Origin: a bacterium
Lineage (GTDB): Bacteria > Vulcanimicrobiota > Xenobia > Xenobiales > JADMJV01
Length of the DNA: 35,363 bases
Reading direction: 5' to 3'
Assembly: GCA_030149525.1 (NCBI GenBank)
Contig: JASBRJ010000037.1
Location: 1-35,363 of the forward strand
Position 1 is the first letter of the stretch. Each line of letters begins with the position of its first letter. The notes beneath the pieces are model-generated. The model saw nothing but the letters and a program-made list of their open reading frames with translations, had not been told where the DNA came from and ran no database searches. Positions 5,528 through 31,001 of the stretch are shown in pieces. The position numbers and the translations under genes are program-made.

Positions 5528-7354
5528 GTGATGACATTGAATCAAGTTTTAGAGTATATGGCCGACAACAACTGCGTCTTGTTCGGGCCCACCTCGGTTG
5601 AAGACCAGATCACTCTCAACTCAGGGTTAACCGTCGAAGGCGAAGGCATGGTGCTGACCTTTTCCGGCCACTTCTCTCAAATCCAGTTGGTGGGTCAGGG
5701 ACCCTTCATATTTCGCCAAATCCATTTCAAGCATGAGCATGAATTGGGACCGAGCTTCTTTCTCTGTCAGGACGCCAACGTTGTCTTCGAAGACTGCTCC
5801 TTCGAGGGCGCTTGGGGTGGACAGGAAGAGTCGCTGGCAAGCGCCGTAAGAGCTCTTGGCCGCTCCAGGGTGAGCTTTGATCGATGCCGATTCAGAAGCA
5901 ACGATCAACATTTGGTTCTCGATCACAACGCCAAGGCCGAGTTTCGCCAGTCGGAGCTTAAAGATGCTCGAGCGGACGGAATCATTCTCAAAGGGAAAAC
6001 GGAGCTTTCCGGCACCGAGATGGAAGTTTGCCGGTCCGGATGGAGTGCCATCACCCTGTCCTCCACCGCCTCTGTGCAGCTCCACGACTCCACTTTAGGA
6101 GAAAACGGATGCCACGGCCTTGAACTCAACGACGACACCCGATACTCCGGCCAGAACAATCATTTTCATGCCAACGGTTACAACGGCATCGCCCTAGCCG
6201 GACGCGCTTGCGCCTTCGCCCAGGGCGATCAACTTATCTCCAACGGGCTCTGTGGAATCGACCTTGGAGAACAGTCCTCAGCCGTTCTCAAGTGGGCCCG
6301 AGCCACCCACAACCAAAGCCACGGAATTCAAGCCCGAGACAGCGCTCGAGTCGACCTGGCAGATTGTAGCGCCAGCAACAACGAAACTTCCGGGGTAGCC
6401 CTCTTCAACGCGGCTTGTCTAGACGGCGAAGATTTCAACATGGAAAACAACGGCTACGCCGGTTTGCAGAGCGGCGATGAATGCCGAGTCACTCTGTGCC
6501 GCGCTAACGCCACCAACAACACCTCCACCTCCGTGCTCTGTTTCGGAACTTCAAGTCTGGTCTTAGAGAGAAGCCGGCTGACGGAATCCGGCGGACATGG
6601 TGTCCAACTGGCCGAACACTGTTACGCCGTCATCCGCGACTGCGAAGTTATGGAGAATAAGCGCTCGGCCGTGGTGTTTGCCGGACAATCCCGAGGACTC
6701 GTTCAGGGGAGCACCCTCGCCCACAACCACCAGGACGGACTGGTCACCGCCGACGAGAGCAAGGTGACAGCCCTGGAGAACCTGGTTCGTTCCAACGGCC
6801 GAGACGGAATTCTCATCCTCTCTTCAGGTCATGGTCAGTTATTGGAAAATCAGAGCCTGAAGAACGGACGGTACGGACTGTTTGCCGGGCCAAGTTCTCG
6901 CCCGTTGCTGTGCGACAACATCTGTAGCGAAAATGAGATGGAAGAGATTGTCCTGGAAACCCAGGAAGCTCGCTCGGCTCTGCGCGGCACGGGTCCTGCC
7001 CAGGAAACCAGCCAGGAACTTCCTCCGGGCGTCACCGTGAGCGTGGAGGACGGCCCCGACCTTCATCTACCTTTCGAACCTAAAAACCTGGAGCGCTCTA
7101 TGCTTGTGGCTCTGGCAAAGCATGGCAGACTCTCCGAGGCAGCCCTGGGCAAAGTGGCCAAAACCCGGCGGGTCGGCGGAGCCATGGAGAACCTTATCGA
7201 TCGTCTGAACAAAGCGGGAATGCCAATCATTCGCCACGATGGACAGGGGCCTGAAGGCAACATCTACGCCCTCAAGGTCGACACGACCCGACAACGCAAA
7301 ACATCTTTCACCAAAACCGAAACCACCTCAATTCAAGGGAGACAAATATGTTAA
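5528..7354 (+). CDS. Cytosolic right-handed parallel beta-helix protein with C-terminal winged-helix-like domain
   Basis: The 608-aa protein is a tandem beta-solenoid: coils of about 22-24 residues repeat motifs such as S..NG..GI.L....A.......... (for example HANGYNGIALAGRACA, LISNGLCGIDLGEQSSA, MENNGYAGLQSGDECR), typical of Beta_helix/NosD-type PbH1 repeats. The helix spans roughly residues 25-480. There is no signal peptide or membrane segment, so it should be cytosolic, unlike most carbohydrate-active beta-helix proteins. An acidic linker leads to a separate domain at about 520-590 (SMLVALAKHGRLSEAALGKVAK, then a second helix and a beta wing), which resembles a winged helix. The start is GTG 5528 or ATG 5531. 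The gene overlaps the BrxD-like ATPase by 7 bp, so the two products are probably made together. Its function is unknown; a sensor or scaffold for the ATPase is inference. Confidence 0.85.
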   Translation: MMTLNQVLEYMADNNCVLFGPTSVEDQITLNSGLTVEGEGMVLTFSGHFSQIQLVGQGPFIFRQIHFKHEHELGPSFFLCQDANVVFEDCSFEGAWGGQEESLASAVRALGRSRVSFDRCRFRSNDQHLVLDHNAKAEFRQSELKDARADGIILKGKTELSGTEMEVCRSGWSAITLSSTASVQLHDSTLGENGCHGLELNDDTRYSGQNNHFHANGYNGIALAGRACAFAQGDQLISNGLCGIDLGEQSSAVLKWARATHNQSHGIQARDSARVDLADCSASNNETSGVALFNAACLDGEDFNMENNGYAGLQSGDECRVTLCRANATNNTSTSVLCFGTSSLVLERSRLTESGGHGVQLAEHCYAVIRDCEVMENKRSAVVFAGQSRGLVQGSTLAHNHQDGLVTADESKVTALENLVRSNGRDGILILSSGHGQLLENQSLKNGRYGLFAGPSSRPLLCDNICSENEMEEIVLETQEARSALRGTGPAQETSQELPPGVTVSVEDGPDLHLPFEPKNLERSMLVALAKHGRLSEAALGKVAKTRRVGGAMENLIDRLNKAGMPIIRHDGQGPEGNIYALKVDTTRQRKTSFTKTETTSIQGRQIC

Positions 7355-8658
7355 GAACTCTGGACAAAGCCACCGCCACCGGCATCACCAACGCCCTACG
7401 GGCAGGCACTGTCCCTTCCGACGGCCTGGAGCACTTCGCTGTGGGACTGGAGCAACAGATGAACGTGCTTCGCGAACAGCGTCAGTGGGTCAAGAGTGGA
7501 CATTCGGCCTTCAAGTTTGTCCGCGGAAGCTACGGTTCGGGTAAAACCTTCCTAACATCACTTGCCGCCGCCGAAGCCAGTGCCGCCAACTTCCTGGTTT
7601 CCAAAGTGGTGATCTCCGCCACCGATACCCCGCTCTACCGATTGGCGGGCGTCTATCGCCGCATGTGTCAGAACCTGTCTCTCACCGACCGCAAGGGCGG
7701 CTCTTTGCAGACCCTGGTAGACCGTTGGCTTTTCCGCCTGGAAGATCAGGTCATTGAGATTGACGGTATGGATGAAGACGATGAGGGCTTCCCCGAAGCG
7801 GTTGCCAAAAAAGTGGAAACCAACCTCGTTCGAGTGGGAGAAAGGGCCGGCCGTCTGGCTGTTTGTCTTAAAGCCTACCATAAAGCCAAATTCGAGAATC
7901 GGTTCTCCGACGCTCGCGGGCTTCTCGACTGGATGTCCGGCGACAACAAAGTGGGCTTCGACGTGAAGAAACTGGCCGACGTCACCGGTCGAGTAGAGAA
8001 CTGGGATGTTATCCCGTTCCTACGAGGCTGGCTGGAACTGATGGAGGCCAGCGGCTACTCCGGCCTTTTCCTGGTCCTCGACGAGGTGGAAACGATTCTT
8101 CGCCTGCGTCGACCGGAGCGCCTGAAGTCATTGGAAGTTCTGCGCCAGCTGATCGACGCCATTGAGAACAATGAACTTCCCGGTCTTCACCTGATTCTGA
8201 CCGGAACTCCCGACTTCTTCGAAGGGCCGAAAGGCGTCCCCGCCCTGCAACCCCTTTACGAGAGAATTCGTGTTACAGGCCACGATGCCGAACCTACCAA
8301 CATGAGACAGCCACAGATCGAGTTACCCACCCTGGACCGGGAGCGACTCTTTCAGGTAGCCCAACGCATCCGCTCCATCTACCCTTCGGCCCATCCTGAG
8401 TTGCTGGAAACCAAAGTGCCCGATGCTTTCATCAGCGCTCTGGTCGACTCTATGACGGCAGGATTCGGCGGACGGGTGGAGGTTGTGCCCCGTATTTTCC
8501 TTCGAGAATTCGTCCACATCTTGGATCTTGTGGACCAGCACGACGACTATGACCCCTTGAGAAGCTACGTGTTCGAAAAGGATAGGGTTGAAGCCGAGCT
8601 TATGAACTCGGCCGAGCGCGCTGCGCTCCAGGAAGAGGCCGTCCCGGTTCTGCTTTAA
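7348..8658 (+). CDS. BrxD-like P-loop ATPase (DUF2791 family), BREX-independent
   Basis: The 436-aa protein matches the BREX ATP-binding protein BrxD/DUF2791 family in length and motifs. These are Walker A GSYGSGKT (residues 60-67), Walker B GLFLVLDEVETIL (around residue 240), and the family-typical LILTGTPDFFEGPKGVPALQPLYERI segment followed by a C-terminal helical lid region. In BREX type 2 loci, BrxD accompanies PglX, PglZ and others in phage defence; none of those is in this window. The ATG lies within the end of the beta-helix gene (7-bp overlap), so the pair is coupled. A strong hairpin plus T-run follows at 8682-8742. Assignment to the ATPase family is confident; a defence role here is inference, and regulation or another ATP-driven process is possible. 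The last 59 bp overlap the convergent transglycosylase gene. Confidence 0.85.
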   Translation: MLRTLDKATATGITNALRAGTVPSDGLEHFAVGLEQQMNVLREQRQWVKSGHSAFKFVRGSYGSGKTFLTSLAAAEASAANFLVSKVVISATDTPLYRLAGVYRRMCQNLSLTDRKGGSLQTLVDRWLFRLEDQVIEIDGMDEDDEGFPEAVAKKVETNLVRVGERAGRLAVCLKAYHKAKFENRFSDARGLLDWMSGDNKVGFDVKKLADVTGRVENWDVIPFLRGWLELMEASGYSGLFLVLDEVETILRLRRPERLKSLEVLRQLIDAIENNELPGLHLILTGTPDFFEGPKGVPALQPLYERIRVTGHDAEPTNMRQPQIELPTLDRERLFQVAQRIRSIYPSAHPELLETKVPDAFISALVDSMTAGFGGRVEVVPRIFLREFVHILDLVDQHDDYDPLRSYVFEKDRVEAELMNSAERAALQEEAVPVLL

Positions 8659-9454
8659 TCTGATCGAGATCTCTTAATACCAGACCGTTGGGACCAGGTG
8701 CAACGTTTCGAAGACGTTGGGCTATCCAACGGTCTTTTTTTTCCCCGACTAAAGCCTGAAACCGGTCTCGGCGAGCCATAATCTTGGCCACGTAGCGCTG
8801 GGTGATTCGGTACGGGGGAATGCCGCCGTACCTCTCCACCGCTCCAGGTCCGGCGTTGTAGGAAGCCAGAGCAAGTTCCGTTTTGTCTTCACGATACTTC
8901 CAGCGGCGACATAAAGCTGCAAGGTAGCGGGCGCAACCTTCGATATTGTCGGAGGCGCGGTAGGGATTCACCCCAAGAGTTGCGGCGGTGGAAGGCAGAA
9001 TCTGGCCCAGGCCGACCGCACCACCCGGAGAGACCACCTGCGGGCGGAATCGCGACTCTTGGGCGATCAAGGCAGCGATGAGGAGCGGGTCCATGGAATG
9101 GCGGTCACTGGATTCCTCAATGGCTTGCGCGATCTCGCGGGCGGCTTCTTGCCCGAGGGAGGGATTGTGGCTGGTCACGATTCCCACCAGTGTTGGGGTG
9201 AGACTCCAGGCTAAGGCCAGGCGCCGTCGTTGCTCTCGTAAGTGGGCTGCATAGAGCTGATTTCGCCGCACGCTGTCCCGCTCATATCGGGCCGCGATTT
9301 CGGTCCGAAACTCCGAGGACAGAGGCATCTCAAGAACGTCAATCTTCTTGAACCAGATGGTGGGCGGTGCCCAACGCTCCTGGCTGAGCGCCTGAAAGCC
9401 TGCATATAAACCGCTGCTCAAACAGAGCATGGTAAAAACGATCCTGAAACCCAA
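8600..9454 (-). CDS. Membrane-anchored lytic transglycosylase (SLT domain)
   Basis: This is a goose-lysozyme-like lytic transglycosylase that should cleave the peptidoglycan glycan strand on the outer face of the inner membrane. The N-terminus (RIVFTMLCLSSGLYAGF) is a signal anchor or signal peptide. The SLT domain covers about residues 115-250: catalytic Glu133 in ALIAQESRF, then SPGGAVGLGQILPSTAATLG, the ALASYNAGPGAVERYGG motif and a YVAKIM helix. I prefer the TTG at 9454, preceded by GGGGA at a 5-nt spacing, over the open-frame start at 9466, which has no ribosome-binding site. The last 20 or so residues are encoded antisense to the 3' end of the BrxD-like gene and run through its terminator, so the true C-terminus deserves checking. 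A terminator separates it from the RiPP cluster upstream. Confidence 0.88.
   Translation of the reverse strand: MGFRIVFTMLCLSSGLYAGFQALSQERWAPPTIWFKKIDVLEMPLSSEFRTEIAARYERDSVRRNQLYAAHLREQRRRLALAWSLTPTLVGIVTSHNPSLGQEAAREIAQAIEESSDRHSMDPLLIAALIAQESRFRPQVVSPGGAVGLGQILPSTAATLGVNPYRASDNIEGCARYLAALCRRWKYREDKTELALASYNAGPGAVERYGGIPPYRITQRYVAKIMARRDRFQALVGEKKDRWIAQRLRNVAPGPNGLVLRDLDQIKAEPGRPLPGAQRARPSS
8682..8742 (+). terminator. Rho-independent terminator of the beta-helix/BrxD-like operon
   Basis: A perfect 10-bp stem (8682-8691 agaccgttgg with 8726-8735 ccaacggtct) encloses a second 6-bp stem (8701-8706 with 8714-8719, loop ttcgaag), and the outer stem runs into eight Ts (8735-8742). It lies 24 bp after the BrxD-like stop codon. 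It also lies entirely inside the convergent transglycosylase reading frame, near its C-terminus. Confidence 0.75.
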
Positions 9455-9532
9455 GGTTGTCCCCAATATCGAAAAGATTCTCAGGACCTTACTTCATGTC
9501 GGGCAGATCATGCAAGTTTGATGGAATAAACG

Positions 9533-9563
9533 AAAAACACCCGGCGTTTGGCCGGGTGTTTTT
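9533..9563. terminator. Perfect bidirectional hairpin terminator ending the RiPP cluster
   Basis: A 13-bp perfect inverted repeat (9533-9545 aaaaacacccggc, loop gtttg, 9551-9563 gccgggtgttttt) gives a GC-rich stem with a T-run on either strand. It lies 22 bp past the stop of the second precursor peptide on the minus strand and would isolate the cluster from the transglycosylase gene. Confidence 0.9.
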
Positions 9564-9585
9564 CTCTGAAGGACTTCGGGCGCTC

Positions 9586-9690
9586 TCAAAGGGTTGTGGA
9601 CGCGAATCCGCCATAAACGGACTCGCGCGCGAAATCGTCAGCCTTAACGATCTTCTCGATCTTTGGCGCTTGATAACTGCTCTTCTTCAT
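9586..9690 (-). CDS. RiPP precursor peptide B (34 aa), downstream of the radical SAM gene
   Basis: This 34-codon gene has ATG 9690-9688, TGA at 9586 and a GGGAGGT ribosome-binding site about 11 nt upstream. The peptide has the leader Y6-Q-A-P-K-I-E-K-I-V-K, then D19-F-A-R-E-S-V-Y26, and the tail GGFASTTL. Peptide A (11790-11894) has the same 34-residue length and the same spaced pattern YxAPKxEKxVKxxDFxRESVY, but a different tail. The Y-x-x-P motif matches what PqqD-like recognition domains bind in lasso-type leaders. It follows the radical SAM gene by 34 bp and precedes a strong terminator. The inferred core is the C-terminal 8 residues, rich in Ser and Thr. Similarity of the two peptides flanking the maturase makes chance very unlikely; the mature product is unknown. 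Confidence 0.85.
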   Translation of the reverse strand: MKKSSYQAPKIEKIVKADDFARESVYGGFASTTL

Positions 9691-9724
9691 CGGTACTCTC
9701 TACCTCCCAGAATCTAAGTATAGT

Positions 9725-11713
9725 TTACTGTTGACCGGCCTTCGTCTGTACGGGTCTCCATCCTTCTCGTCTGAACAGATAGAAGGCGACCTGGAAAACC
9801 TCTCTCGTATCCGCGGCAACCTCTCTGAGGACAGTGCCCGCCCCCCTTAGGAAAAGGGCTCTGGGTATACCTCGAAGGCAAGCTCCCAGTTCGAGGAGCG
9901 CTCTACCTGGTGAGCGATCGACGACTCCGTGAAGGAATGCAAGAAACGGCTCTAACCAGAGGTTGGTGCGAATACGGTCATCCAGAAACATTTGATAGGC
10001 CATGACTCGATTAAGAAAGCGGACGGAGAAAGAAATGGAGTCTCGACGACGGGCGCCGATTCCAAGCTTCAGACCGAGATGCTCGCAAAGAAAAAATAGC
10101 TCGTGACTGAAACCGTTCTGCGCAAGTCCGTTCCAATCCACAGACTCCACTGAATTAAGAAACCGAAGATCCCAAGCCAGCGCGCCGCCTCGGCGATAGA
10201 GCCTGTTCCTCCACTGCCGTAAGCATTCCAGAGCAATTCTCTCCGGTCCCTCCAGGTCTTGCTCCCGCCTTTCCACCACAACGACCGGATAATCGAGCCG
10301 CTGGCCAAGAAGCTGCTCCACTTCCTTAACAGGGCGACCCGAAGACACGCACAATTGGCTATCGACTCTCGGATTCTCCATTTGCAAAAGTCGAGAAGTG
10401 CCAAACGGCTTCAATCCAAGCCCATGCTCCTCGCCGATTCTTAAAACTTCCGCCAGTCGTTGCTGCAGAACGGCCTGCTCCGCATCCCGACGCTCCCTGG
10501 CCTCCTCCACTCGAGCTCTAAAGAAGGCTGGGGCCCACTCCCTTAAGACTCTCCTTTGCTCGTCTTTCTCCAGCAGCGCCAACAAACCGTTCTGCTCCAG
10601 AATCACAGCGAGCCGCTCCCAGTCGAGGTCCGCACGGCCAAACACCCGATCCATAGACTGCCTGGGCCCGCTCACCAGCAACTCGGTAAAGGCACGCGGC
10701 CCCTCACGGGCGTTCACCGCATCTCTGTGAAATGTTTCGCTTCTGGCAGACTCCAGAACCAGCCCCCGGGCCAACCGTTCGGCAGCCACCTCGGGCCGGG
10801 AGAGGTATGCACGAAGCGCCTCTACGGCCTGTCCATCCCGATTGAGATCTACACAAAGTTCACACATCCCCGAGTAGTTCTTTTGCAGCGGATGATTTTC
10901 AAAGCCGGGCAGACTCAGAAGGATGTCTCTCAACCTGGCAGGCCCGTCAATACGAATAGTTTGTAGGATCGGGTCGTCTCTATGTTTTTGTAGAAGCTCC
11001 GCGATGTTGGAGTCGGGTCGGTACTCCCCTACGAATAGGCCGGACTCCGGCGGCACGAAATAGGACGGTCCGTTGCAAGCCAAAACACGACCGTTGTCGG
11101 CAAACGTGATCTGCTCACAGGCGCTACAAAACCCCTCCAATTGACCCCTGAGTTCATCCTCAAGGCTCTTAGCGAGTCCAACCGGCTGGACATCATAGAA
11201 GCGCAAATTGGTGTTGGCCCTGCCCCGAAACGGTTGCACCAACTCATCCAGGTCGGAGTCATCGAGAGACCGGGTGATATTGATATGAACGACCTGGCCG
11301 AACTCTTCTGCCGCGTCGAGAATATTCAGGAGTGGTTCAGGCCCCTGGAACTCCGCATGGAAACGATCATAAGAGAGGGCCAGCCTGACCAGCCCGGCGT
11401 CCAACAGAGCTTTCATGGTCTCTCTGGCTCGGGCGGGCTTCTTTCCCCAAAAACCGTTGGAGACAATTGTTGTCTTGACTCCCCCGGCCTTGGCGCGCTC
11501 CATCAACTCTAAGACGAGAGGCCCTCTCAATAGAGGCTCACCCCCGGTGAATTGAATCAAATCTATTCCGGCCTCCACGAGAGAGTCGACCAATGACCGG
11601 AGTTCCTCCTCCGAGGGCTGTCCCTTGATGTGAGGGTTGCTCTCCACACTGCAGTGACGACAGCTCATATTACATTTTCGCGTGACCATAATGGCTGCGT
11701 ATCGGATCTTCAT
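9725..11713 (-). CDS. Radical SAM/SPASM-like RiPP maturase with large unassigned C-terminal region
   Basis: This is a 662-aa radical SAM enzyme. Residues 14-21 carry the CxxxCxxC cluster motif (CNMSCRHC), and 57-60 are GGEP for SAM binding. Auxiliary-cluster cysteines of SPASM-like type follow at C196, C199, C213, C284 and C287, suggesting extra Fe-S clusters as in peptide maturases. About 370 further residues, mostly alpha-helical and charged, match no family I recognise; most characterised SPASM peptide maturases are far shorter. I chose ATG 11713, preceded by GGGAG at a 6-nt spacing; the open frame begins at 11827, but that stretch overlaps precursor A. The gene sits between two near-identical-leader precursor peptides. 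The likely role is oxidative modification of their cores, but the chemistry cannot be read from sequence. Confidence 0.9.
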   Translation of the reverse strand: MKIRYAAIMVTRKCNMSCRHCSVESNPHIKGQPSEEELRSLVDSLVEAGIDLIQFTGGEPLLRGPLVLELMERAKAGGVKTTIVSNGFWGKKPARARETMKALLDAGLVRLALSYDRFHAEFQGPEPLLNILDAAEEFGQVVHINITRSLDDSDLDELVQPFRGRANTNLRFYDVQPVGLAKSLEDELRGQLEGFCSACEQITFADNGRVLACNGPSYFVPPESGLFVGEYRPDSNIAELLQKHRDDPILQTIRIDGPARLRDILLSLPGFENHPLQKNYSGMCELCVDLNRDGQAVEALRAYLSRPEVAAERLARGLVLESARSETFHRDAVNAREGPRAFTELLVSGPRQSMDRVFGRADLDWERLAVILEQNGLLALLEKDEQRRVLREWAPAFFRARVEEARERRDAEQAVLQQRLAEVLRIGEEHGLGLKPFGTSRLLQMENPRVDSQLCVSSGRPVKEVEQLLGQRLDYPVVVVERREQDLEGPERIALECLRQWRNRLYRRGGALAWDLRFLNSVESVDWNGLAQNGFSHELFFLCEHLGLKLGIGARRRDSISFSVRFLNRVMAYQMFLDDRIRTNLWLEPFLAFLHGVVDRSPGRALLELGACLRGIPRALFLRGAGTVLREVAADTREVFQVAFYLFRREGWRPVQTKAGQQ

Positions 11714-11789
11714 GACCGTCTCCCAATCAACCGGAATGAAAAACACCTCGCGGGTGGCGAAGTGTCTTGTAAATGTGTTCCAGTTCTTT

Positions 11790-11894
11790 CTAATTGCTAG
11801 AAACGTTAGCAGCGTAAACCGACTCACGCTGGAAGTCTTCCGATTTCACAACCTTCTCGACTTTGGGTGCCTCATATTTTGCGGGCTTGTTCAT
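11790..11894 (-). CDS. RiPP precursor peptide A (34 aa), upstream of the radical SAM gene
   Basis: This 34-codon gene has ATG 11894-11892, TAG at 11790 and a GGAGGGAG ribosome-binding site 8 nt upstream. The leader Y7-E-A-P-K-V-E-K-V-V-K, then D20-F-Q-R-E-S-V-Y27, matches precursor B in spacing and most residues, and the tail is AANVSSN. The conserved Y-x-x-P-x-(V/I) resembles the lasso-leader motif bound by PqqD/RRE domains, in keeping with the PqqD-like protein two genes upstream. It lies 25 bp after the HPr-kinase-like gene and 76 bp before the radical SAM start. The 7-residue tail is the inferred core. The C-terminal Ser-Ser-Asn is notable because HPr-kinase-like enzymes phosphorylate a C-terminal Ser in some lasso peptides. 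Confidence 0.85.
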   Translation of the reverse strand: MNKPAKYEAPKVEKVVKSEDFQRESVYAANVSSN

Positions 11895-11919
11895 GATTCT
11901 AACTCCCTCCGGAAAATGT

Positions 11920-12807
11920 TCAGGCCGTGACATTCGCACCTATAGGATCAACACCCTCTGCTAGACGCTCAAAAAGTGACTCCATGCGACGGGCTTGCTC
12001 GGGCAAGGTAGCCCGACCCATTCGATAGACCGGGATCTTATTGGAAAGCGGCGCTAAACCGGCAAGGCTCGCACCAAGCCCCCGAGAGTAGTAGTGGTGA
12101 TTATGAACGGCAAGACTCATCACCGCCTCCGACTCTTCCAGTCTCTCCAAGCGACTTTCCGTGGCCAGCAAAAGCACCACGGCCCCCAGCCGATTCCTAG
12201 CAACGCGTCGGCAAGGGTGAAATAGAAGGCTGCCGTCATCTCCCTGGAAACAATCCTTCTGCTGGGCTATCCGAGTCCAAAGCGCGTCTCCCAGCAATTC
12301 CCGACTGGTGGCTCGAACTCGCGAGCGTCGAGAGATAGGAGTGGCTGTCCAATCCGACGTCTCCAGCTGAAAGCCGTCGTCGGAGTAGAGATTGAAGCCT
12401 CGTGACCATAGGTAAGCGGCAAGAGTCGACTTACCGGCCTCCTTGTTGCCCACCACGCCCACCGATACACCGCCTTTTTCCAGCAGGCAGGCATGAAAAC
12501 CCATGGGAGCATCGGGCCTGACAAGATCGGCGTAAACAGATTGGAACTCCACCGCCTTCAAGGCCTCAGAGACACAGGCAAAACGGCTGCTGAAGCCCTC
12601 TTTTTCTAGGAACGGCTTCATCCAGGTTGGCCCCTTCGTCTCCCAGGTGGATTCAGTGGGCTTCAGGACAACCCAATCACCCACAAACTGACTGTCGGGC
12701 GAGGGAACCCAGGGTGCGAAGACCGATTCAGCGAGAGCGAAACACTCGGATAGATCCGTGTTCAATCGAAAGCGAGAGTATCTTGTGCCCCACTCAAGCC
12801 TGTACAA
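11920..12807 (-). CDS. HPr kinase-like P-loop protein (RiPP tailoring kinase candidate)
   Basis: The 295-aa protein resembles the HPr-serine-kinase-like proteins found in lasso-peptide clusters. It has a Walker A loop at residues 120-127 (GNKEAGKS), followed by LWSRGFNLYSDDGFQLE with the Asp pair D143-D144 that HprK-type kinases use for metal and catalysis, and a Pro-Ile-Ser-Arg-Arg segment after it. There is no PTS operon nearby, so it is unlikely to be the classic HprK. In the paeninodin lasso cluster a homologous kinase phosphorylates a C-terminal Ser; by analogy this one may phosphorylate the Ser/Thr-rich precursor tails. The start is TTG 12807, overlapping the PqqD-like gene by 14 bp; its ribosome-binding site is weak, so the start is uncertain and translation may be coupled. 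Confidence 0.85.
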   Translation of the reverse strand: MYRLEWGTRYSRFRLNTDLSECFALAESVFAPWVPSPDSQFVGDWVVLKPTESTWETKGPTWMKPFLEKEGFSSRFACVSEALKAVEFQSVYADLVRPDAPMGFHACLLEKGGVSVGVVGNKEAGKSTLAAYLWSRGFNLYSDDGFQLETSDWTATPISRRSRVRATSRELLGDALWTRIAQQKDCFQGDDGSLLFHPCRRVARNRLGAVVLLLATESRLERLEESEAVMSLAVHNHHYYSRGLGASLAGLAPLSNKIPVYRMGRATLPEQARRMESLFERLAEGVDPIGANVTA

Positions 12808-13069
12808 CGACGATGCCGTTCTTGAGCAACTCCTCGATATAGGCTTCTACATCGGACTTGATGTCCTGAGGCTCAACATCAGGATGTTCCGCCTGCAGAG
12901 CCTTGATCAACTCGCTCTGAGGCGATGGACGCTCCAGCCGATTCCAAAGCCAGGAACCGGTGGGGTTCAAGACGATGGAATCGTGAGTCTCTTGATGAAA
13001 AACGACAACTCTCTGACCACTGGGATGAGTGTCGGCTTTGGGATGTCTGGCTAGAATTCTGTTGCTCAT
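12794..13069 (-). CDS. PqqD-like peptide chaperone (RiPP recognition element)
   Basis: The 91-aa protein is of the PqqD family, the winged-helix-like RiPP recognition element that binds precursor leaders and presents them to the maturase. It has the typical sequence of a short beta region (GQRVVVFHQETHDSIVLNPTGSWLWNRLE, with the family's 'LN.TG..LW..L' signature), a helix (SELIKALQAEH) and a C-terminal helix (DVEAYIEELLKNGIVVV). The start ATG 13069 follows the nucleotidyltransferase stop by 17 bp, and its end overlaps the kinase gene by 14 bp, placing it inside the operon. It is the expected partner for the YxxP leader motif in both precursor peptides. Confidence 0.9.
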   Translation of the reverse strand: MSNRILARHPKADTHPSGQRVVVFHQETHDSIVLNPTGSWLWNRLERPSPQSELIKALQAEHPDVEPQDIKSDVEAYIEELLKNGIVVVQA

Positions 13070-13086
13070 GCTCAGAAACTACTCTG

Positions 13087-14196
13087 TTAGCTTTTGAGCG
13101 CCTGCCGGATTCTTTCCTGAATCACACGGACCGGCCTGAGCAAATAGTAAAGAGGCCAGTACCAACGAGGAAGATCCATCCATTTCAGGTCCAGAGCATG
13201 GGGTCGAAAAAGGGTGAACAAGGCGTATCTCGCACGGGCCGGCCAGTCGTCAAAAAGCTGCCATTGAAAGCGATGAAGCTCTGCCAGTCCCGGTCGCTCT
13301 GAAAACATGTGAGCCCGGGCCTTCGCCGTCAGAGGTTCTAGACGTTTCGGCAGCTTCCAACCCTCGGGCGTCTTGAGTGAGAATAAGTCTTTGGCAAGTT
13401 CAAGGCCTAGCGAAAGCGATCTCACCCCTCCGCTTTCTTTGGCCACCTGTCCCACTCTCTGCCAGTCCAAGGGATGGGAACGACAGAGAGCGACCAGATC
13501 ATAGACCCAGCGGAGTTTTCTCCATCCATGTTTACCGCCATGGATAGCCAAAAGAACCAGATGCTCCTCGGGCGCGAAAGTCTCCACCGGATACCCGTTC
13601 ATCTGGACAGCGAACGGCGTCTTTTTTGATAAGCTAAAACTGTCTCGAAACGCCTCCGAGAAAGCTGAGCGGTGAAGATCCACGGTCACCCGTCTTCGAT
13701 TATGAATAAGTGTGATCTCGTAGGCCAACTTGAGATAACAGCGAGGCAGGTCGCCGAGTTCGGGCACAAACCCTTCGGCCCTGAGAAGCTGAAACGCTTC
13801 CTCGTACATCTCCGGTGCAACCAAGAGATCCAGATCTCCCCACTCTCGTCCCGAAGCGCCGCCATAAGCAAGGAAAGCCAGCGCCGGACCCTTGTAACAC
13901 GCTACCTCGATCCCTCGGGAGTGGAAGAGATCGAGAAGAGCCAGCAACTCGTTGACCTGGCGAATCTGAGCCAGTGTTCGCCAGGTGGCAGAAGACGACA
14001 TGAGTTCCGCCGTCGGTTCTGGCAGATAGGCAGCGAACTCCCTGTCCAGACACTCCCAAAGGGGCAAGGCGAGGCCTTCTTCTTCGGCCACACCCCAAAG
14101 TCGCTCCCAGTCCACTTCTCCTTGTAATTCTTGCTCCTTACGATCTCTTGAAGCACACCCAAGCAAAAGCAAAATCAATTCATATTCAGAAGACAA
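13087..14196 (-). CDS. Nucleotidyltransferase family protein (NTP_transf_5-like) of the RiPP cluster
   Basis: The 369-aa protein resembles the uncharacterised nucleotidyltransferases that accompany HPr-kinase-like genes in lasso clusters. The N-terminal helical half leads to the catalytic region CYKGPALAFLAYGGASGREWGDLDLLV, with the DxD pair in 'WGDLDLL', followed by a further Asp in VTVDLHRSAF. I chose TTG 14196 because GGAGGGG lies about 5 nt upstream; an ATG at 14220 is in frame but sits within the tRNA terminator. In paeninodin-type systems such enzymes extend the phosphate placed by the kinase, so the likely substrate here is the phosphorylated precursor peptide; a small-molecule substrate is possible. 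It is the first gene of the cluster, read away from the tRNA. Confidence 0.85.
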   Translation of the reverse strand: MSSEYELILLLLGCASRDRKEQELQGEVDWERLWGVAEEEGLALPLWECLDREFAAYLPEPTAELMSSSATWRTLAQIRQVNELLALLDLFHSRGIEVACYKGPALAFLAYGGASGREWGDLDLLVAPEMYEEAFQLLRAEGFVPELGDLPRCYLKLAYEITLIHNRRRVTVDLHRSAFSEAFRDSFSLSKKTPFAVQMNGYPVETFAPEEHLVLLAIHGGKHGWRKLRWVYDLVALCRSHPLDWQRVGQVAKESGGVRSLSLGLELAKDLFSLKTPEGWKLPKRLEPLTAKARAHMFSERPGLAELHRFQWQLFDDWPARARYALFTLFRPHALDLKWMDLPRWYWPLYYLLRPVRVIQERIRQALKS

Positions 14197-14215: not shown

Positions 14216-14244
14216 TGCAAAAAGGCACGTCTTTCGACGCGCCT
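14216..14244 (-). terminator. Terminator immediately after tRNA-Gln
   Basis: On the minus strand, directly after the encoded CCA, comes the stem AGGCGCGTC, tetraloop GAAA, then GACGTGCCT and a T-run (TTTTT). One G-T pair interrupts an otherwise perfect 9-bp stem. It would end tRNA transcription before the RiPP cluster. Confidence 0.85.
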
Positions 14245-14319
14245 TGGCTGGGGTACCTGGATTCGAACCAGGGAATGCCGGAACCAAAACCCGGTGCCTT
14301 ACCGCTTGGCTATACCCCA
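14245..14319 (-). tRNA. tRNA-Gln (anticodon TTG)
   Basis: Read on the minus strand, this gives a complete cloverleaf. The 7-bp acceptor stem (TGGGGTA with TACCCCA) is followed by a D arm with AGCGGTAA and an anticodon stem CCGGG/TCCGG holding the loop TTTTGGT, so the anticodon is TTG. The T arm is CCTGG-TTCGAAT-CCAGG. Discriminator G at 14248 is right for glutamine, and CCA is encoded at 14245-14247. A terminator follows at once. Confidence 0.97.
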
Positions 14320-14791: not shown

Positions 14792-17700
14792 TTAGCCATT
14801 TCCATCAGCGAAGCTGTCGGACCGGCTGTGGTCTTTGGCGTCGGAGGCCGCGATACCACCGTCGAGAGCAAACGACTGGGCGACCGAACCACGCAAAGCC
14901 TGCGAGAGGGCTATGGCGTTGTTCAGAGCTCTCGCTCTGGCATTGGAGAACGCCGTAGCTCCGGAAACCGAAGTCGAGTGGTTGGCGGCTTCGGAATTGG
15001 CACTGGAAAAGAGGTTGGAAGTGGCGTTAGCCTGGCTACCACGGTTCGACCAGGAGCGAGCTACCGACATCCAGTTCGAGTGGGCACCCGACTGAGAGTG
15101 AGCGTTAGCTTGCGCGTTGGCGACCGAATTGTTGCTGGCAGTGGCATCGGCACCGGAATGATTCGTGGAGTTCGCGTCGGCCACCGAGTTGCCGACCGCG
15201 AAAGCTCCGGAATCGGAGTGATTGGCAGCCCCGGCCTCAGCCGTGGAAGCGTTGATTCCGTCCGCGGAGGCTCGGCTTTGATTGGTGCCCCACGCTCTGG
15301 CGATAGACGACATAGCCGCGTTGGCGCGAACTGCGGAGAATCTGTTAGCTCTGGCTCGTGCCGAGGAACCGAATTCAGCGTTTGCGGTAGAGACCGAATT
15401 TCGAGTGGCGTCGGCGTCGGCCACCGAACCGAAGTCGGCGGAGGCTCCTGCGGAGCTTCCTCTCACGGCGTTGGCGTCGGCAGCGCTGTGGTGACCGGCT
15501 ACAGCGTCAGCACCGGACCACTGACTGGCGGTGGCTGAAGCGGCAGAAGAATGGTCGGCCGCAGCTCCGGCGATGCTGTAGTCGTCGGCTTCAGCGTTGG
15601 CAGCAGAATTGCCGAAGGAGGCGGCACTAGCAGTGCTGGCACCACTGGCTTGCGCAGTGGAGTCGGAGAGATTGCCGGCGACAGCGTCGGCGGAAGAGTT
15701 AGACTCGGCAGACGCGGAAGCGGAACTCACGGTGTCGGCGTTAGCTTGAGCCGCAGAGCCACCTTCGGCGAAGGCTAGGGCGTCTGAGATGACGGAGGCA
15801 TCGGCGTTGGCGGCGGAGCCGTTGAGAGCGACCGCGTCGGCAGTGCTGGTTTCATTGGCGGTGGCGGAAGCCATGGAATCGTTGCCTCCGAAGGCGTTAG
15901 CGGCAGAGCCGGTGTTAGCCTCGGCGGATACCGAAGAGTAGTCGTCGGCGGTGGCCACCGCTGCGCTGGATTCGGTGGCGATGGCGGTCGCGTCGGCGTC
16001 GTTGGTAGCCGTAGCCGAAGCAGCGGAATCACCGGCGGCGATAGCGTTGGCGTCGGAAATGCCGTCGGCTGTGGCGGAAGCCAAAGAGTCTGAGATAGCT
16101 CCCGCTTGGGCATCGGAAGAGTTGGTTGCGGTGGCGGCCGCTTTGGAATCGTCAGCAGCCGATGCGGAAGCGGTGGAGAAGGAATCTGCCGATGCGGCCG
16201 AGGTGGACCAACCACCCGCTGCTGCATTGGCGACAGAACCTTCGTTGGCGATAGCGGAAGCATCAGAGTAATCATTAGCCAAAGCGTCGGCACCGGAAGC
16301 GTTCACGCCCACCGCGCTCGCGGAAGAGAAATCGTTGGCTTCAGCGGTAGCGTGGCCGTCGACGGCGCCCAGAGCTGTGGCGTCGGAGAAGTTGGACGCT
16401 GTAGCGTTGGCACTACCGTCGGCGGCGGCGTTGGCGTCGGCGACCGAACCGACACTGGCGTTGGCCGAAGAGGAGCTGTGCTGACTGGATTCTGCGGTAG
16501 CCACACTAGAGGCGTCGGCCACAGCAGTGGCGTCTGCGTCGTTAGCTGCATTTGCGGTTGCGGCGCTGTTGTCGCTGGCGGCAGCCAAGGTGGAGGAGAA
16601 ATCGTTGGAGGTAGCCGAGGCGGCGCTGGAACCGGAAGCCGAGGCGGTTGCATCGGCATCATCGGTTGCCGTGGCGGCAGCTACGGAATCATCCACAGCC
16701 ACGGCAGTGGACGTGGAGAGGTGATCGGCTGCGGCGCTGGCGGAGGAATCCCCTGTAGCTGCGGCGGCTGAAGTTGACCAATCGTTGGCCTCGGCAACAG
16801 CCGTGGACCAGTCGGCCGCTGCCGCATCGGCATTGGAACCGTCGTTAGCGATCGCCGTTGCGTCGGACATTCCACCTGCCACGGCGCTGGCGTCGGAGTC
16901 GATGGTGGCAACAGCACTGGCGTTGGAAGCGTCGACGGCGCTAGCATCGGCGTTACCGAAAACGGCGGCCACAGCGTTGGCGTCGGAGTTATCGGTAGCT
17001 GCTGCCGACGCGGTGGAGTTTGCTGCTGCCGTTGCGGTGGCTTCAGAATGGTTTTGAGCGGAAGAAGAGGCGTCGGAACCTTGACTGGAATCTGCGGTTG
17101 CGAAACTTCCACCAGCGGCGTTGGCCGATGCGGTGGCGGAGTTCGAGGCGTTGGACTCTGCTACCGAGTGACTGACAGCGCTTGCCGAGGAAACGGCTGT
17201 GTCGGCGGCGCTGGCAGACGCCGATGACGTGTGGTCGGCGGAAGCCAGTGCAGCGCTGTCGCCGGTGGCCACGGCGTCGGCCGAGGCATCATTGGTGGCC
17301 GTGGCTACAGCAGCGGAATTGTTGGAAGAAGCGGCGCTGGCGTCGGACACGTTGGAAGCTTCGGCGGAGCTGACCGAGTCGTCGAAGGCCACGGAGACGG
17401 CTGAGGAAGAACCGTCGGCCACGGCGCTGGAAGACGAACTTCCACCGGCACCGGCATCGGCGGTCGACCAGTCGTTGGCGTTGGCGTTGGCGGTGGAACC
17501 GCTGTCGGCCGCCGCGTTGGCCTGAGAGCCTTCTGTGGCTATGGCGGTGGAATCACTGGAGTTTGAAGCCACCGAGGTTGCGTCGGAATCGTTCACACCG
17601 GTCGCACCGGCCGAGGAAGAGTTTGTTGCGGTGGCCTGGGCGCTGCCTTCAACGGCGGCCACGGCGTTGGCGTCGGAAAGGTTTGTGGCCGAAGCTGTGG

Positions 17701-18694
17701 CGTTCGAACTCGCGGCTGCGGTGGAAGACGCCGTGCTGGTGTGGGAGGCGGTCGAGGTGGCTTCGGCGTCCTGTGTGGCGGTGGCGTCGGCTACGGCGGA
17801 GTGAGCCGCCGTTGCGCTGGCCGAGCTGTAATCCGAGGCCGCTGCGGTGGCGGCACTACCGTTACTGGCGGCAGCGGTAGCGTCGGCATCATCGTTGGCG
17901 GCGGCCTGCGCGGCTGAGCCACCAAAGGCGACGGCGTTGGCGTCGGAGGAGCTTCCCGCGTCGGCCACGGCGACGGAGTCGGCAGCGGCAGCGGCCGTAG
18001 CGTCAGAAGAATTGACTGCCACGGCACTGGCGCTGGCGCTGTCTACGGCAGCGGCTTCAGCAGAAGAACCGCTCTGGGCTTCTGCCACGGCCGTGGAATC
18101 GTCTGCGGTGTTAGCGGTGGCCACGGAACTGTCGGTAGCGATGGCCGTCGAGCTGGAATCTCCGATGGCAGCTGAAGTGGCAGTAGAATCATTATCGGCA
18201 ACCGCGGTGGCGCTGGCATCGCCCACGGCTACGGCTTGCGACTGGCTGTAGTCGTCGCTGATGGCGCTGGCGGAGGAGCCTTCATCGGCCAGCGCGTTGG
18301 CCGAAGAGCCGTCGTCCGCGTTAGCCGTGGCGCTGGAGCCGTCGTCGGCAACGGCTGTGGCAGTGGAACCGTCGCTTGCGAAGGCGCCTGCTTGAGAACC
18401 GTCTTCAGCGGTGGCGGTGGCAGTGGAGCCGTTGGAAGCGGAGGCGACAGCTACGGTGAGGTCGGGGTCGTTGAGAAGACCGTCCAACCAGTTACCCAGT
18501 CCTTGAGTGAAGTCGACTCCGGCCAGTATATCCATCCCCCCGGATAGCGAAATGCCGATTTCGGATTCACCGGCGCCTGCGTCGGCCGTGGCGGTGAGCT
18601 GCTGGTTGGGCTGAGTCTCGCCCGCAAAGTTAAAATTGATATCGAAGTTACGGGCGGTGCCGGATTGGGGGATAAACGAGTTGCCAGTGATCAA
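14792..18694 (-). CDS. Giant Ala/Ser-rich decapeptide-repeat protein (1300 aa)
   Basis: A unique N-terminus of about 80 residues has no recognisable signal peptide and includes ISLSGGMDILAGVDFTQGLG. It leads into some 115-120 tandem copies of a 10-residue repeat, approximately S-x-A-x-A-x-A-x-(N/D)-(D/G), for example DGSSATANAD, NDADATAIAT and NDWSTADAGA. The alternating small residues suggest a tightly packed beta-solenoid or beta-roll; that is inference. Aromatic residues (W, Y, F) recur at the turn before Ser. The N-terminal and middle copies are Asp-rich, while the last 250 or so residues carry Arg and Asn. There is no YadA anchor, LPXTG or membrane helix. The start is TTG 18694, with AGGAGG 9 nt upstream. 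Function is unknown; an extracellular, structural, ice- or mineral-binding role, or an intracellular scaffold, are all open. Confidence 0.88.
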   Translation of the reverse strand: MITGNSFIPQSGTARNFDINFNFAGETQPNQQLTATADAGAGESEIGISLSGGMDILAGVDFTQGLGNWLDGLLNDPDLTVAVASASNGSTATATAEDGSQAGAFASDGSTATAVADDGSSATANADDGSSANALADEGSSASAISDDYSQSQAVAVGDASATAVADNDSTATSAAIGDSSSTAIATDSSVATANTADDSTAVAEAQSGSSAEAAAVDSASASAVAVNSSDATAAAAADSVAVADAGSSSDANAVAFGGSAAQAAANDDADATAAASNGSAATAAASDYSSASATAAHSAVADATATQDAEATSTASHTSTASSTAAASSNATASATNLSDANAVAAVEGSAQATATNSSSAGATGVNDSDATSVASNSSDSTAIATEGSQANAAADSGSTANANANDWSTADAGAGGSSSSSAVADGSSSAVSVAFDDSVSSAEASNVSDASAASSNNSAAVATATNDASADAVATGDSAALASADHTSSASASAADTAVSSASAVSHSVAESNASNSATASANAAGGSFATADSSQGSDASSSAQNHSEATATAAANSTASAAATDNSDANAVAAVFGNADASAVDASNASAVATIDSDASAVAGGMSDATAIANDGSNADAAAADWSTAVAEANDWSTSAAAATGDSSASAAADHLSTSTAVAVDDSVAAATATDDADATASASGSSAASATSNDFSSTLAAASDNSAATANAANDADATAVADASSVATAESSQHSSSSANASVGSVADANAAADGSANATASNFSDATALGAVDGHATAEANDFSSASAVGVNASGADALANDYSDASAIANEGSVANAAAGGWSTSAASADSFSTASASAADDSKAAATATNSSDAQAGAISDSLASATADGISDANAIAAGDSAASATATNDADATAIATESSAAVATADDYSSVSAEANTGSAANAFGGNDSMASATANETSTADAVALNGSAANADASVISDALAFAEGGSAAQANADTVSSASASAESNSSADAVAGNLSDSTAQASGASTASAASFGNSAANAEADDYSIAGAAADHSSAASATASQWSGADAVAGHHSAADANAVRGSSAGASADFGSVADADATRNSVSTANAEFGSSARARANRFSAVRANAAMSSIARAWGTNQSRASADGINASTAEAGAANHSDSGAFAVGNSVADANSTNHSGADATASNNSVANAQANAHSQSGAHSNWMSVARSWSNRGSQANATSNLFSSANSEAANHSTSVSGATAFSNARARALNNAIALSQALRGSVAQSFALDGGIAASDAKDHSRSDSFADGNG
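14825..18450 (-). repeat. 30-bp-period coding repeat array with 200-230-residue super-repeats
   Basis: The array encodes roughly 115-120 decapeptides in constant register. A higher-order unit is visible: blocks that begin SDANAVAAVE, SDANAVAAVF and SDATALGAVD recur about 23 and 20 decamers apart. Each is followed by equivalent segments, including an SDATAIAN/SDASAIAN-like decamer four units later and a Trp decamer (ADW, GGW or NDW) after the sixth or seventh. The nucleotide copies are diverged. No unit-to-unit identity suggests recent slippage, and no spacers are present. Confidence 0.85.
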
Positions 18695-29828: not shown

Positions 29829-30997
29829 TTTCCTGCTCCTATCTTGAGTGCGGCAATGGCACACCCCTTGTGCTTGGTCACACCGGCGCGGCCCAACAGA
29901 GTGAGAGTAGGAGACTTGCGACCGCAGCGACATTCGGGATGAACCACTCCACGGTCGGTGGTGAGAAGACTCACGGCGGGAAAAGAATGATGATAGGGAG
30001 TCAGAAATTGAAGCAGACCGGCCTGCCCGGGCGGCAAGACCTCAAGAGTGATCGGGTCTCTTACGAGAACGCGACTGTAGTTGGGGATGTGCATTCTCCA
30101 CTTTTCACACTCGCAATAAGGAACCCCGTGCTCCACCATTCCGTAGAGATCGCGCACGTTCTGAGCCGGTATTCCGAGCCAACGGCCCACCTGTTCCCGA
30201 AAGATCCTCTTGTCGATCTGCTGGTGGTCAAAATTTTTCCAACCTCCGCCCGTGATAACAAAGCTTCGAGGCCCAAAACGGAAGCATCTGCCGTTTCGCG
30301 CTTCTACAATCTGCTGCAAAACCGACCAGGTGTGGGCAGGAAAGCCGAGGATTCGAAAAGGACGACCGGACGCCTCGAAGCGCTCCAACGATGCGGCCAC
30401 GCGGTCGACGTCGAGATGCCAATCGTTCTTTTTCTCGTCCCACACGATGGCGTAGCAAACATGATTGACTCGAGTCAGACCCGTGAGCAACTTATCGGAA
30501 AAAGCCGTCCCAACATCCTTGGCCACTTCCGGATCGTAGGTGAAACAAAGGTAATTGGTCTTCATACGATTCACCATTTCGAGGTCGAGATAAATATGGC
30601 GAACGACCCGTTTGATTCTCCGCAGCGATGTCCTATCAAGATAGATAGCACTGGTTTGACCGCTGGTGCCGGAAGACTTCAGCGTCAAGACAATCTGCTC
30701 GTCGGGCACACTTTTGACCGAGTGATACTTCAAAGCGGTGACGAAGAAATACGGAATCCTGGCGAGATCCTCCGATGTTTTGAGATCCCAAGGGAAAAAA
30801 TCTTGATCCTGGCACAGCATTTGAAACTCTGGACAGCCGAGATAATGGAAGGCAAAAGCCTCTTTCATAGCGCGAAGAAAAGCCCGCTCCTGAGCCGGAC
30901 CGATATGAAGCCCCCGTTTATATCCGATCAGGCTGTCGGTGGCTCCGCGGAACTTCTGCCAGACTCGCTTTGCAAGTTTTTCCTGTTGTGGCAACAT
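29825..30997 (-). CDS. LuxE-like acyl-protein synthetase
   Basis: The 390-aa protein resembles LuxE, which activates a fatty acid as acyl-AMP, holds it on a Cys and passes it to LuxC. Motifs seen are the adenylation P-loop LKSSGTSGQTS, VITGGGWKNF, the RDLYGMVEHG acyl-adenylate motif, and a C-terminal KGCAIAALKIG segment with the candidate acyl-accepting Cys. A Cys-rich stretch near the C-terminus (HPECRCGRKSP) is also present and could bind metal. I chose ATG 30997, 4 nt after the GNAT-like stop; the open frame to 31114 would overlap that gene. It has no good ribosome-binding site and probably depends on coupling. Its stop overlaps the LuxC-fusion start. The upstream luxD equivalent (acyl-transferase) is absent. 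Confidence 0.85.
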   Translation of the reverse strand: MLPQQEKLAKRVWQKFRGATDSLIGYKRGLHIGPAQERAFLRAMKEAFAFHYLGCPEFQMLCQDQDFFPWDLKTSEDLARIPYFFVTALKYHSVKSVPDEQIVLTLKSSGTSGQTSAIYLDRTSLRRIKRVVRHIYLDLEMVNRMKTNYLCFTYDPEVAKDVGTAFSDKLLTGLTRVNHVCYAIVWDEKKNDWHLDVDRVAASLERFEASGRPFRILGFPAHTWSVLQQIVEARNGRCFRFGPRSFVITGGGWKNFDHQQIDKRIFREQVGRWLGIPAQNVRDLYGMVEHGVPYCECEKWRMHIPNYSRVLVRDPITLEVLPPGQAGLLQFLTPYHHSFPAVSLLTTDRGVVHPECRCGRKSPTLTLLGRAGVTKHKGCAIAALKIGAGK

Positions 30998-31001
30998 AAG
31001 A

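Follow-up and report, generated by a model that had tools for sequence, protein, structure and literature searches.

What kind of peptide is made by an operon that carries the kinase and the nucleotidyltransferase (NTase) of phosphorylated lasso peptides and a radical S-adenosylmethionine (SAM) enzyme, but no lasso cyclase? The question is raised by a six-gene operon on the minus strand of a 35,363-nucleotide contig (JASBRJ010000037.1 of assembly GCA_030149525.1; the whole stretch is called the window here) from a bacterium of the Vulcanimicrobiota (Table 1). Its radical SAM gene is flanked by two genes for 34-residue precursor peptides with one common block of 21 residues; the other three genes encode the NTase, a PqqD-like RiPP recognition element (RRE) and an HprK-like peptide kinase. 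An initial annotation had read the operon as an undescribed system for a ribosomally synthesised and post-translationally modified peptide (RiPP). Its gene calls, coordinates and sequences proved correct when re-read from the open reading frames (ORFs) and with Pfam, and the RiPP reading stands with its two precursors, YxxP leaders, PqqD-type RRE, radical SAM enzyme, lasso-type kinase and NTase and missing cyclase; the word undescribed does not. On balance, we think that this is probably a RiPP operon without a cyclase whose mode of action resembles that of the pathways for linear polyphosphorylated peptides (LPPs), extended by a variant of the EpeE-like radical SAM enzymes.

Two precursors and their conserved serine

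Precursor A (P0002; MNKPAKYEAPKVEKVVKSEDFQRESVYAANVSSN) has the leader motif YEAPKVEK, a conserved DFQRESVY and the tail AANVSSN, and precursor B (P0001; MKKSSYQAPKIEKIVKADDFARESVYGGFASTTL) the leader motif YQAPKIEK, a conserved DFARESVY and the tail GGFASTTL. Three lines of evidence identify the two as real genes: codon-level selection, the duplication of a precursor-hairpin unit and the presence of a precursor in a second genome. In the 21 codons that they share, from YxAP to RESVY, A and B differ at 5 first, 1 second and 13 third codon positions, with a pS of 0.92 versus a pN of 0.14, indicating that the shared block is under strong purifying selection. Both genes are followed by a hairpin that ends in a U-run; the hairpins share 74% identity across 34 nucleotides and the whole unit of ribosome-binding site, gene and downstream hairpin aligns between the copies, so the cassette was duplicated. 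The hairpin after precursor A may be an attenuator ahead of the radical SAM gene. A search of the whole genome with a precursor profile found no precursors beyond A and B.

Close relatives were sought by sequence patterns across 84,980 species genomes and one was found, a contig of a Chthoniobacterales metagenome-assembled genome (L004) that encodes a 53-residue precursor followed by a hairpin, a PqqD-like protein, an HprK-like kinase and a radical SAM protein. The leader pattern thus recurs beside radical SAM and HprK-like genes, and the precursors are conserved outside the window, a point on which the initial annotation had made its reading depend. In the alignment of the three precursors, from two genomes, the Y, A, P, K, D, R, E, S and Y of YxAPxxxK...D..RESxY are invariant. 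It is very improbable that the operon is a lasso or LPP cluster in decay, without a product and stripped of its cyclase, protease and exporter: protease and exporter are indeed missing and the NTase-like domain of the radical SAM protein is degenerate (see below), but the precursors are under strong purifying selection, all enzyme frames are intact, the motifs of the kinase, the stand-alone NTase and the RRE are kept and the same set is retained in another phylum.

RESxY is the only stretch past the leader that is conserved, and for this reason it is the first candidate for the target site of the radical SAM enzyme. Only one serine has the same offset in each of the three precursors, the RES serine, 18 residues after the leader tyrosine (Y+18); the C-terminal serine, which had been named as the modified residue, has no such constant register. 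None of the three has an aspartate or glutamate after Y+17, including the tails of 7-16 residues that follow RESxY, and there is therefore no tail acid for a lasso macrolactam. The precursors contain no cysteine, hence no thioether is formed, which rules out a sactipeptide or ranthipeptide. We also rejected the lasso class for the operon: the window has neither cyclase nor B2 protease and the precursors offer no Asp or Glu for ring position 7-9.

A kinase, NTase and RRE set as in LPP pathways

An RRE, an HprK-like kinase and an NTP transferase without a lasso cyclase are the set published for the LPP family, described in 2026 (Popov et al.) as restricted to Bacillota and lacking radical chemistry (PMC13381572). 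LPP pathways consist of the RRE LppB, the kinase LppK, the NTP transferase LppN, the peptidase LppS and the exporter LppD; the precursor is cut after T-1 and phosphorylated at S3, and the YxxP tyrosine is Y-16 (PMC13381572), which places S3 18 residues past this tyrosine. The window operon agrees with the LPP family in its discrete RRE, HprK-like kinase and NTP transferase, in the lack of a macrolactam synthetase, and in short precursors that have a YxxP leader, a conserved N-terminal part, variable tails and a serine at Y+18. It differs in that no archaeal-type SpI leader peptidase and no MsbA-like exporter were found in the window cluster, in its radical SAM enzyme and in its host outside the Bacillota. 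From the LPP motif YxxPxVLxHQxIxFETxxS the window precursors keep the Y, the P, a hydrophobic residue at +5 and the serine at +18, whereas HQ and ET are absent and the HQxIxFET part is replaced by DFxRE. As the core enzymes agree fully, the motif in part, and peptidase and exporter not at all, we regard the operon as LPP-like in its working without filing it as LPP.

All three proteins of this set are those that the initial annotation had named. The PqqD-like RRE (PF05402, 4.8e-16) has weak matches to solved structures, namely the lasso RRE TbiB1 (0.0075) and the LPP RRE LppB (9x8z, 0.074), and in the latter weak alignment the leader-contact residues N33 and D70 of LppB correspond to N35 and D73. 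None of the NCBIfam lasso-leader models matches the window precursors, which do have the YxxP motif, and given the contact residues the YxAPx[IV] leader would be the expected ligand of the RRE. The kinase has a weak Pfam match (Hpr_kinase_C, 0.0019) and aligns with HprK-like proteins of lasso-type clusters; it keeps H105, K126 (in AGKST), D143 and D144, the H-K-D-D residues that are named catalytic in lasso kinases (PMC9266682). The stand-alone NTase (PF14907, 7e-49) has the motifs DLDLLV at 121 (catalytic) and DLH at 173, and a purine-rich site, CAGGGAGGGG, lies just upstream of its TTG start.

Because its Y+18 register is that of LPP S3, the conserved RES serine, not a C-terminal one, is probably the phosphate acceptor, and a phosphorylated non-lasso product is likely. 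The NTase might decorate the phosphate, by analogy with PsmN; this role is weakly supported, as LppN gave no product when it was assayed in a heterologous test (PMC13381572). The predicted phosphoserine is precise and cheap to test. The Pfam scans of the larger ORFs agree with the earlier statement that the window encodes no asparagine-synthetase-like cyclase, no transglutaminase-like B2 protease and no dedicated exporter. The phosphorylated lasso peptides paeninodin and pseudomycoidin have in common with the window a PqqD/B1 protein, an HprK-like kinase with H-K-D-D, an NTase and a YxxP-type leader; unlike them, the window lacks the cyclase C, the B2 protease and a ring acid, and its acceptor serine is not C-terminal.

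Other named systems fit less well. SynChlorMet, a cassette of NCBIfam, already unites a radical SAM protein with HprK-like and PqqD-like proteins (ScmF, ScmC and ScmD), which also speaks against calling the combination undescribed. However, the Scm radical SAM protein is a SPASM protein while the window enzyme is EpeE-like, and the window proteins score below the cut-offs of all three models (ScmC 11.7 of 125, ScmD 30.3 of 100 and ScmF 30.7 of 400 bits); SynChlorMet was not mentioned in the literature searched. The HPr-rel-A system was rejected too (TIGR04352 30.4 of 200 bits, TIGR04353 27.8 of 35 bits, both below the cut-off). Phospeptin of Candidatus Eudoremicrobium is likewise a linear polyphosphorylated RiPP of an uncultivated bacterium with a large genome, but its sole maturase is the dehydration domain of a lanthipeptide synthetase and no set of HprK, RRE and radical SAM protein is described (PMC9259500).

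A radical SAM enzyme with a changed donor position

Three traits of the radical SAM protein go beyond what the initial annotation had seen: its EpeE-like character, the loss of the donor cysteine and an NTase-like domain. Its best NCBIfam model is the YydG/EpeE epimerase (TIGR04078, 3.4e-32, 112 bits at a cut-off of 300) and its best matches among solved structures are those of EpeE (8ai1-8ai6, E about 1e-20). The radical SAM motif CxxxCxxC is present (C14, C18, C21) and there are five second-site cysteines (C196, C199, C213, C284, C287), of which C196, C213, C284 and C287 are kept relative to EpeE. In EpeE, Cys223 is the proposed hydrogen-atom donor and its mutation causes breakage of the peptide (PMC8326336). 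The EpeE entries of the PDB have the wild-type motif PCCS and, at the second Cys, an engineered PCAS variant; we take this second Cys as Cys223. At the donor position, the window protein (motif ACNGPSYF) and L004 have asparagine, while Cys-Cys is found in all 17 other aligned relatives. The two Asn-bearing sequences form one clade (support 95/89) and have the extra Cys199, near the donor segment, in common. With the donor replaced in these two and conserved in the 17 others, plain epimerisation by the window enzyme is doubtful. The enzyme appears to have the fold and clusters of EpeE without the defining donor, and may either epimerise with a relocated cysteine or lead the radical to another fate.

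One alternative is therefore an ordinary peptide epimerase whose donor cysteine has moved to Cys199, with kinase and NTase as secondary decorations. The best family and PDB matches, the kept second-cluster cysteines and the position of Cys199 close to the same segment in both members speak for it; nonetheless, we hold it to be rather unlikely, given the asparagine in both members, a score far under the family cut-off and the absence from the window operon of the M50 protease and ABC genes of epe operons. A classical epipeptide system was rejected on account of the missing donor cysteine and the low TIGR04078 score: the resemblance to EpeE/YydG epipeptide systems is in the radical SAM core and the second-cluster cysteines, whereas the donor asparagine, Cys199, the C-terminal NTase-like domain, the RRE, kinase and NTase partners and the precursor are different.

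The L004 radical SAM protein continues into an intact NTP_transf_5 domain (PF14907, 6e-18, residues 382-619), and this fusion would tie the radical SAM enzyme to the phosphate branch. The corresponding C-terminal domain of the window protein, from about residue 350, is degenerate: DxD has become D451-S-Q and the later D/E is lost. Its assignment as NTase-like depends on L004, since it scores 20.1 bits (best of 1000 shuffles: 8.8) with a profile that includes L004, and 5.8 bits versus 6.0 for the shuffles once L004 is dropped. For the radical SAM protein and for its C-terminal part taken alone, AlphaFold2 gave models with pLDDT values of 50-52, too low for a fold search. As a tentative proposal, the Asn-donor enzyme with the EpeE fold and fused NTase-like domain could generate a C-alpha radical that leads to a crosslink, desaturation or backbone change within the RESxY of a Ser-phosphorylated peptide. 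If this is true, radical and phosphoryl chemistry are coupled on one short motif, in a RiPP subclass. Since EpeE breaks the peptide when Cys223 is mutated, the natural change from Cys to Asn is in any case a ready-made experiment on what decides the outcome of a radical SAM reaction.

The LPP-like pathway that we favour would run as follows. Two paralogous precursors are made, and a leaky hairpin after precursor A would keep the amount of precursor above that of the radical SAM enzyme. The RRE would bind YxAPx[IV], whose residues are conserved. The HprK-like kinase would then add one or more phosphates to the serine of RE-S-xY, as the LPP S3 register suggests, and the NTase may extend the phosphate by a group of nucleotide or sugar type, as PsmN does. 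The radical SAM enzyme would take a hydrogen from the peptide, at a residue that lies either within RESxY or in the tail; as the donor Cys is Asn, the radical would more likely end in a bond or a desaturation than be re-quenched as in epimerisation. Leader removal and export would be left to proteins encoded elsewhere.

Several points weigh against this pathway. Its exact form is known from two genomes only. Both the SpI peptidase and the MsbA-like exporter, which help to define LPPs, are absent from the window, and the threonine in front of the LPP cut site is not conserved in the precursors here (A, Q, E). The inactivity of LppN in its heterologous test (PMC13381572) weakens the role of the NTase, and Cys199 might stand in for the lost donor, permitting epimerisation. 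Finally, roughly 20 offsets were possible, and the match at Y+18 is a single exact coincidence among them.

Relatives, wider group and neighbouring genes

The radical SAM protein of L004 is 42% identical to the window protein over residues 2-423. The NTase is a separate, intact gene in the window and a domain fused to the radical SAM protein in L004, thus the same four functions occur together in two unrelated genomes of different phyla. With full-length profiles, one of 149 genomes of the window's own phylum matches at a comparable score, the genome itself, next to one weaker EpeE-like match; the numbers are 5 of 388 in the phylum of L004, 1 of 213 in its order and 10 of 384 in its class, and all Verrucomicrobiota matches other than L004 are stand-alone or lasso-linked forms. 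This rare and patchy occurrence of the exact form suggests spread by horizontal transfer. A wider spread within the window's own phylum was rejected: other EpeE-like genes keep Cys-Cys, and all four neighbourhoods examined lack RRE, kinase and NTase partners. Plasmids yielded two distant radical SAM matches in different neighbourhoods and no HprK match, and viral contigs merely fragments of unrelated radical SAM genes. A plasmid of Tropicibacter oceani (L084) encodes an EpeE-like radical SAM protein together with more radical SAM genes, a phosphotransferase and trypsin-like and M23 peptidases.

In 9 of 62 genomes, all from one order of Verrucomicrobiota, EpeE-like genes of the Cys-Cys type are accompanied by genes for HprK-like and PqqD-like proteins, and an NTase lies nearby. 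Five of the nine (L069-L072, L108) have no cyclase and encode two small proteins of the LESRELFAA type and a 63-residue peptide; in L070, export-like HlyD-type and M50-peptidase proteins are annotated. We do not claim the LESRELFAA peptides as homologous precursors, as they have no YxxP and the similarity of RELFAA to RESVYAA is weak. In the remaining four (L104-L107) the EpeE-like gene lies inside a lasso cluster, or what looks like part of one, with not every component annotated at each locus: L106 and L107 have a lasso cyclase (Asn_synthase; NF033535 in L107, 454 bits at a cut-off of 525) and precursors above the cut-off of the lasso leader model NF033521 (KPYEAP[KR]L[IV]VHGSVEE[LI]TK...), and L106 has a B2 protease above the cut-off of NF033537. 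Radical SAM enzyme and cyclase are thus not alternatives, and the idea that a radical SAM step replaces lasso cyclisation gives way to one in which the radical SAM protein is more likely an added tailoring enzyme, with or without a cyclase. Lasso peptides with radical SAM tailoring, possible products of these four clusters, were not found in the literature searched.

The same genome as the window also encodes a lasso cyclase and a B2 protease outside the window, in lasso-type gene sets on contigs C1 and C222 that were identified by reading the ORFs (L055 and L059 of G000), and on C157 (L058) it has HprK-like and NTase genes with carrier/reductase, methyltransferase and glycosyltransferase-like genes. 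The window precursors could in principle be cyclised or cleaved in trans by this lasso machinery. We consider this improbable: the leader motif is lasso-like and EpeE-like genes do occur within lasso clusters, but the short tails after RESxY have no ring Asp or Glu, there is no Thr at the lasso -2 register, and the lasso leader models that recognise the L106 and L107 precursors miss those of the window.

The LPP-type set of kinase, NTase and RRE is now seen outside Bacillota, in other phyla and joined to a radical SAM enzyme. Lasso clusters with a radical SAM enzyme, cyclase-free clusters with export genes and the cyclase-free Asn variant fused to an NTase-like domain make up a series in which the loss of cyclisation and the change in radical chemistry become testable.

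Table 1. Positions in the window of the operon, which is bounded by a tRNA-Gln and its terminator-like hairpin at 14319-14222 and by a strong terminator at 9564-9532, and of single residues discussed in the text
Feature	Position	Strand	Remarks
tRNA-Gln (ttg)	14245..14319	-	directly upstream, same strand; left operon boundary
Terminator-like hairpin after tRNA-Gln	14222-14245
NTase (NTP_transf_5), 369 aa	13087..14196	-	TTG start at 14196
PqqD-like RRE, 91 aa	12794..13069	-	PF05402 4.8e-16
HprK-like peptide kinase, 295 aa	11920..12807	-	gene start overlaps PqqD gene by 14 nt
Precursor A (P0002), 34 aa	11790..11894	-	GGAGG ribosome-binding site
Candidate phosphate acceptor Ser25, precursor A	11820-11822
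Hairpin with U-run between precursor A and radical SAM gene	11741..11767	-	-16.8 kcal/mol, z -3.06
EpeE/YydG-like radical SAM protein, 662 aa	9725..11713	-	TIGR04078 3.4e-32
Asn214 at EpeE donor-Cys position (ACNGPSYF)	11072-11074	-
Precursor B (P0001), 34 aa	9586..9690	-	GGGAGG ribosome-binding site
Candidate phosphate acceptor Ser24, precursor B	9619-9621
Strong intrinsic terminator, operon end	9532..9564	-	14-bp stem, -25 kcal/mol, z -7.07

An island next to the tRNA gene is not supported: the tRNA end has no direct repeat, and an empty-site comparison would need the gene beyond the other end of the operon (SLT, 8600-9466), which has no clear orthologue in family members. Further along the window, an orphan BrxD-like ATPase (7348-8658, plus strand; PF10923 4e-117, PADLOC BrxD 1e-137) comes after a NosD-type beta-helix protein (5528-7354) and is the only BREX gene recognised in the window. 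On the minus strand, a protein of 1300 residues (14792-18694) consists almost entirely of repeats rich in Ala, Ser and Asp and has no Pfam match, and at 27198-31114 a 911-residue fusion of a LuxC acyl-CoA reductase with an AMP-binding domain is encoded beside a LuxE acyl-protein synthetase.

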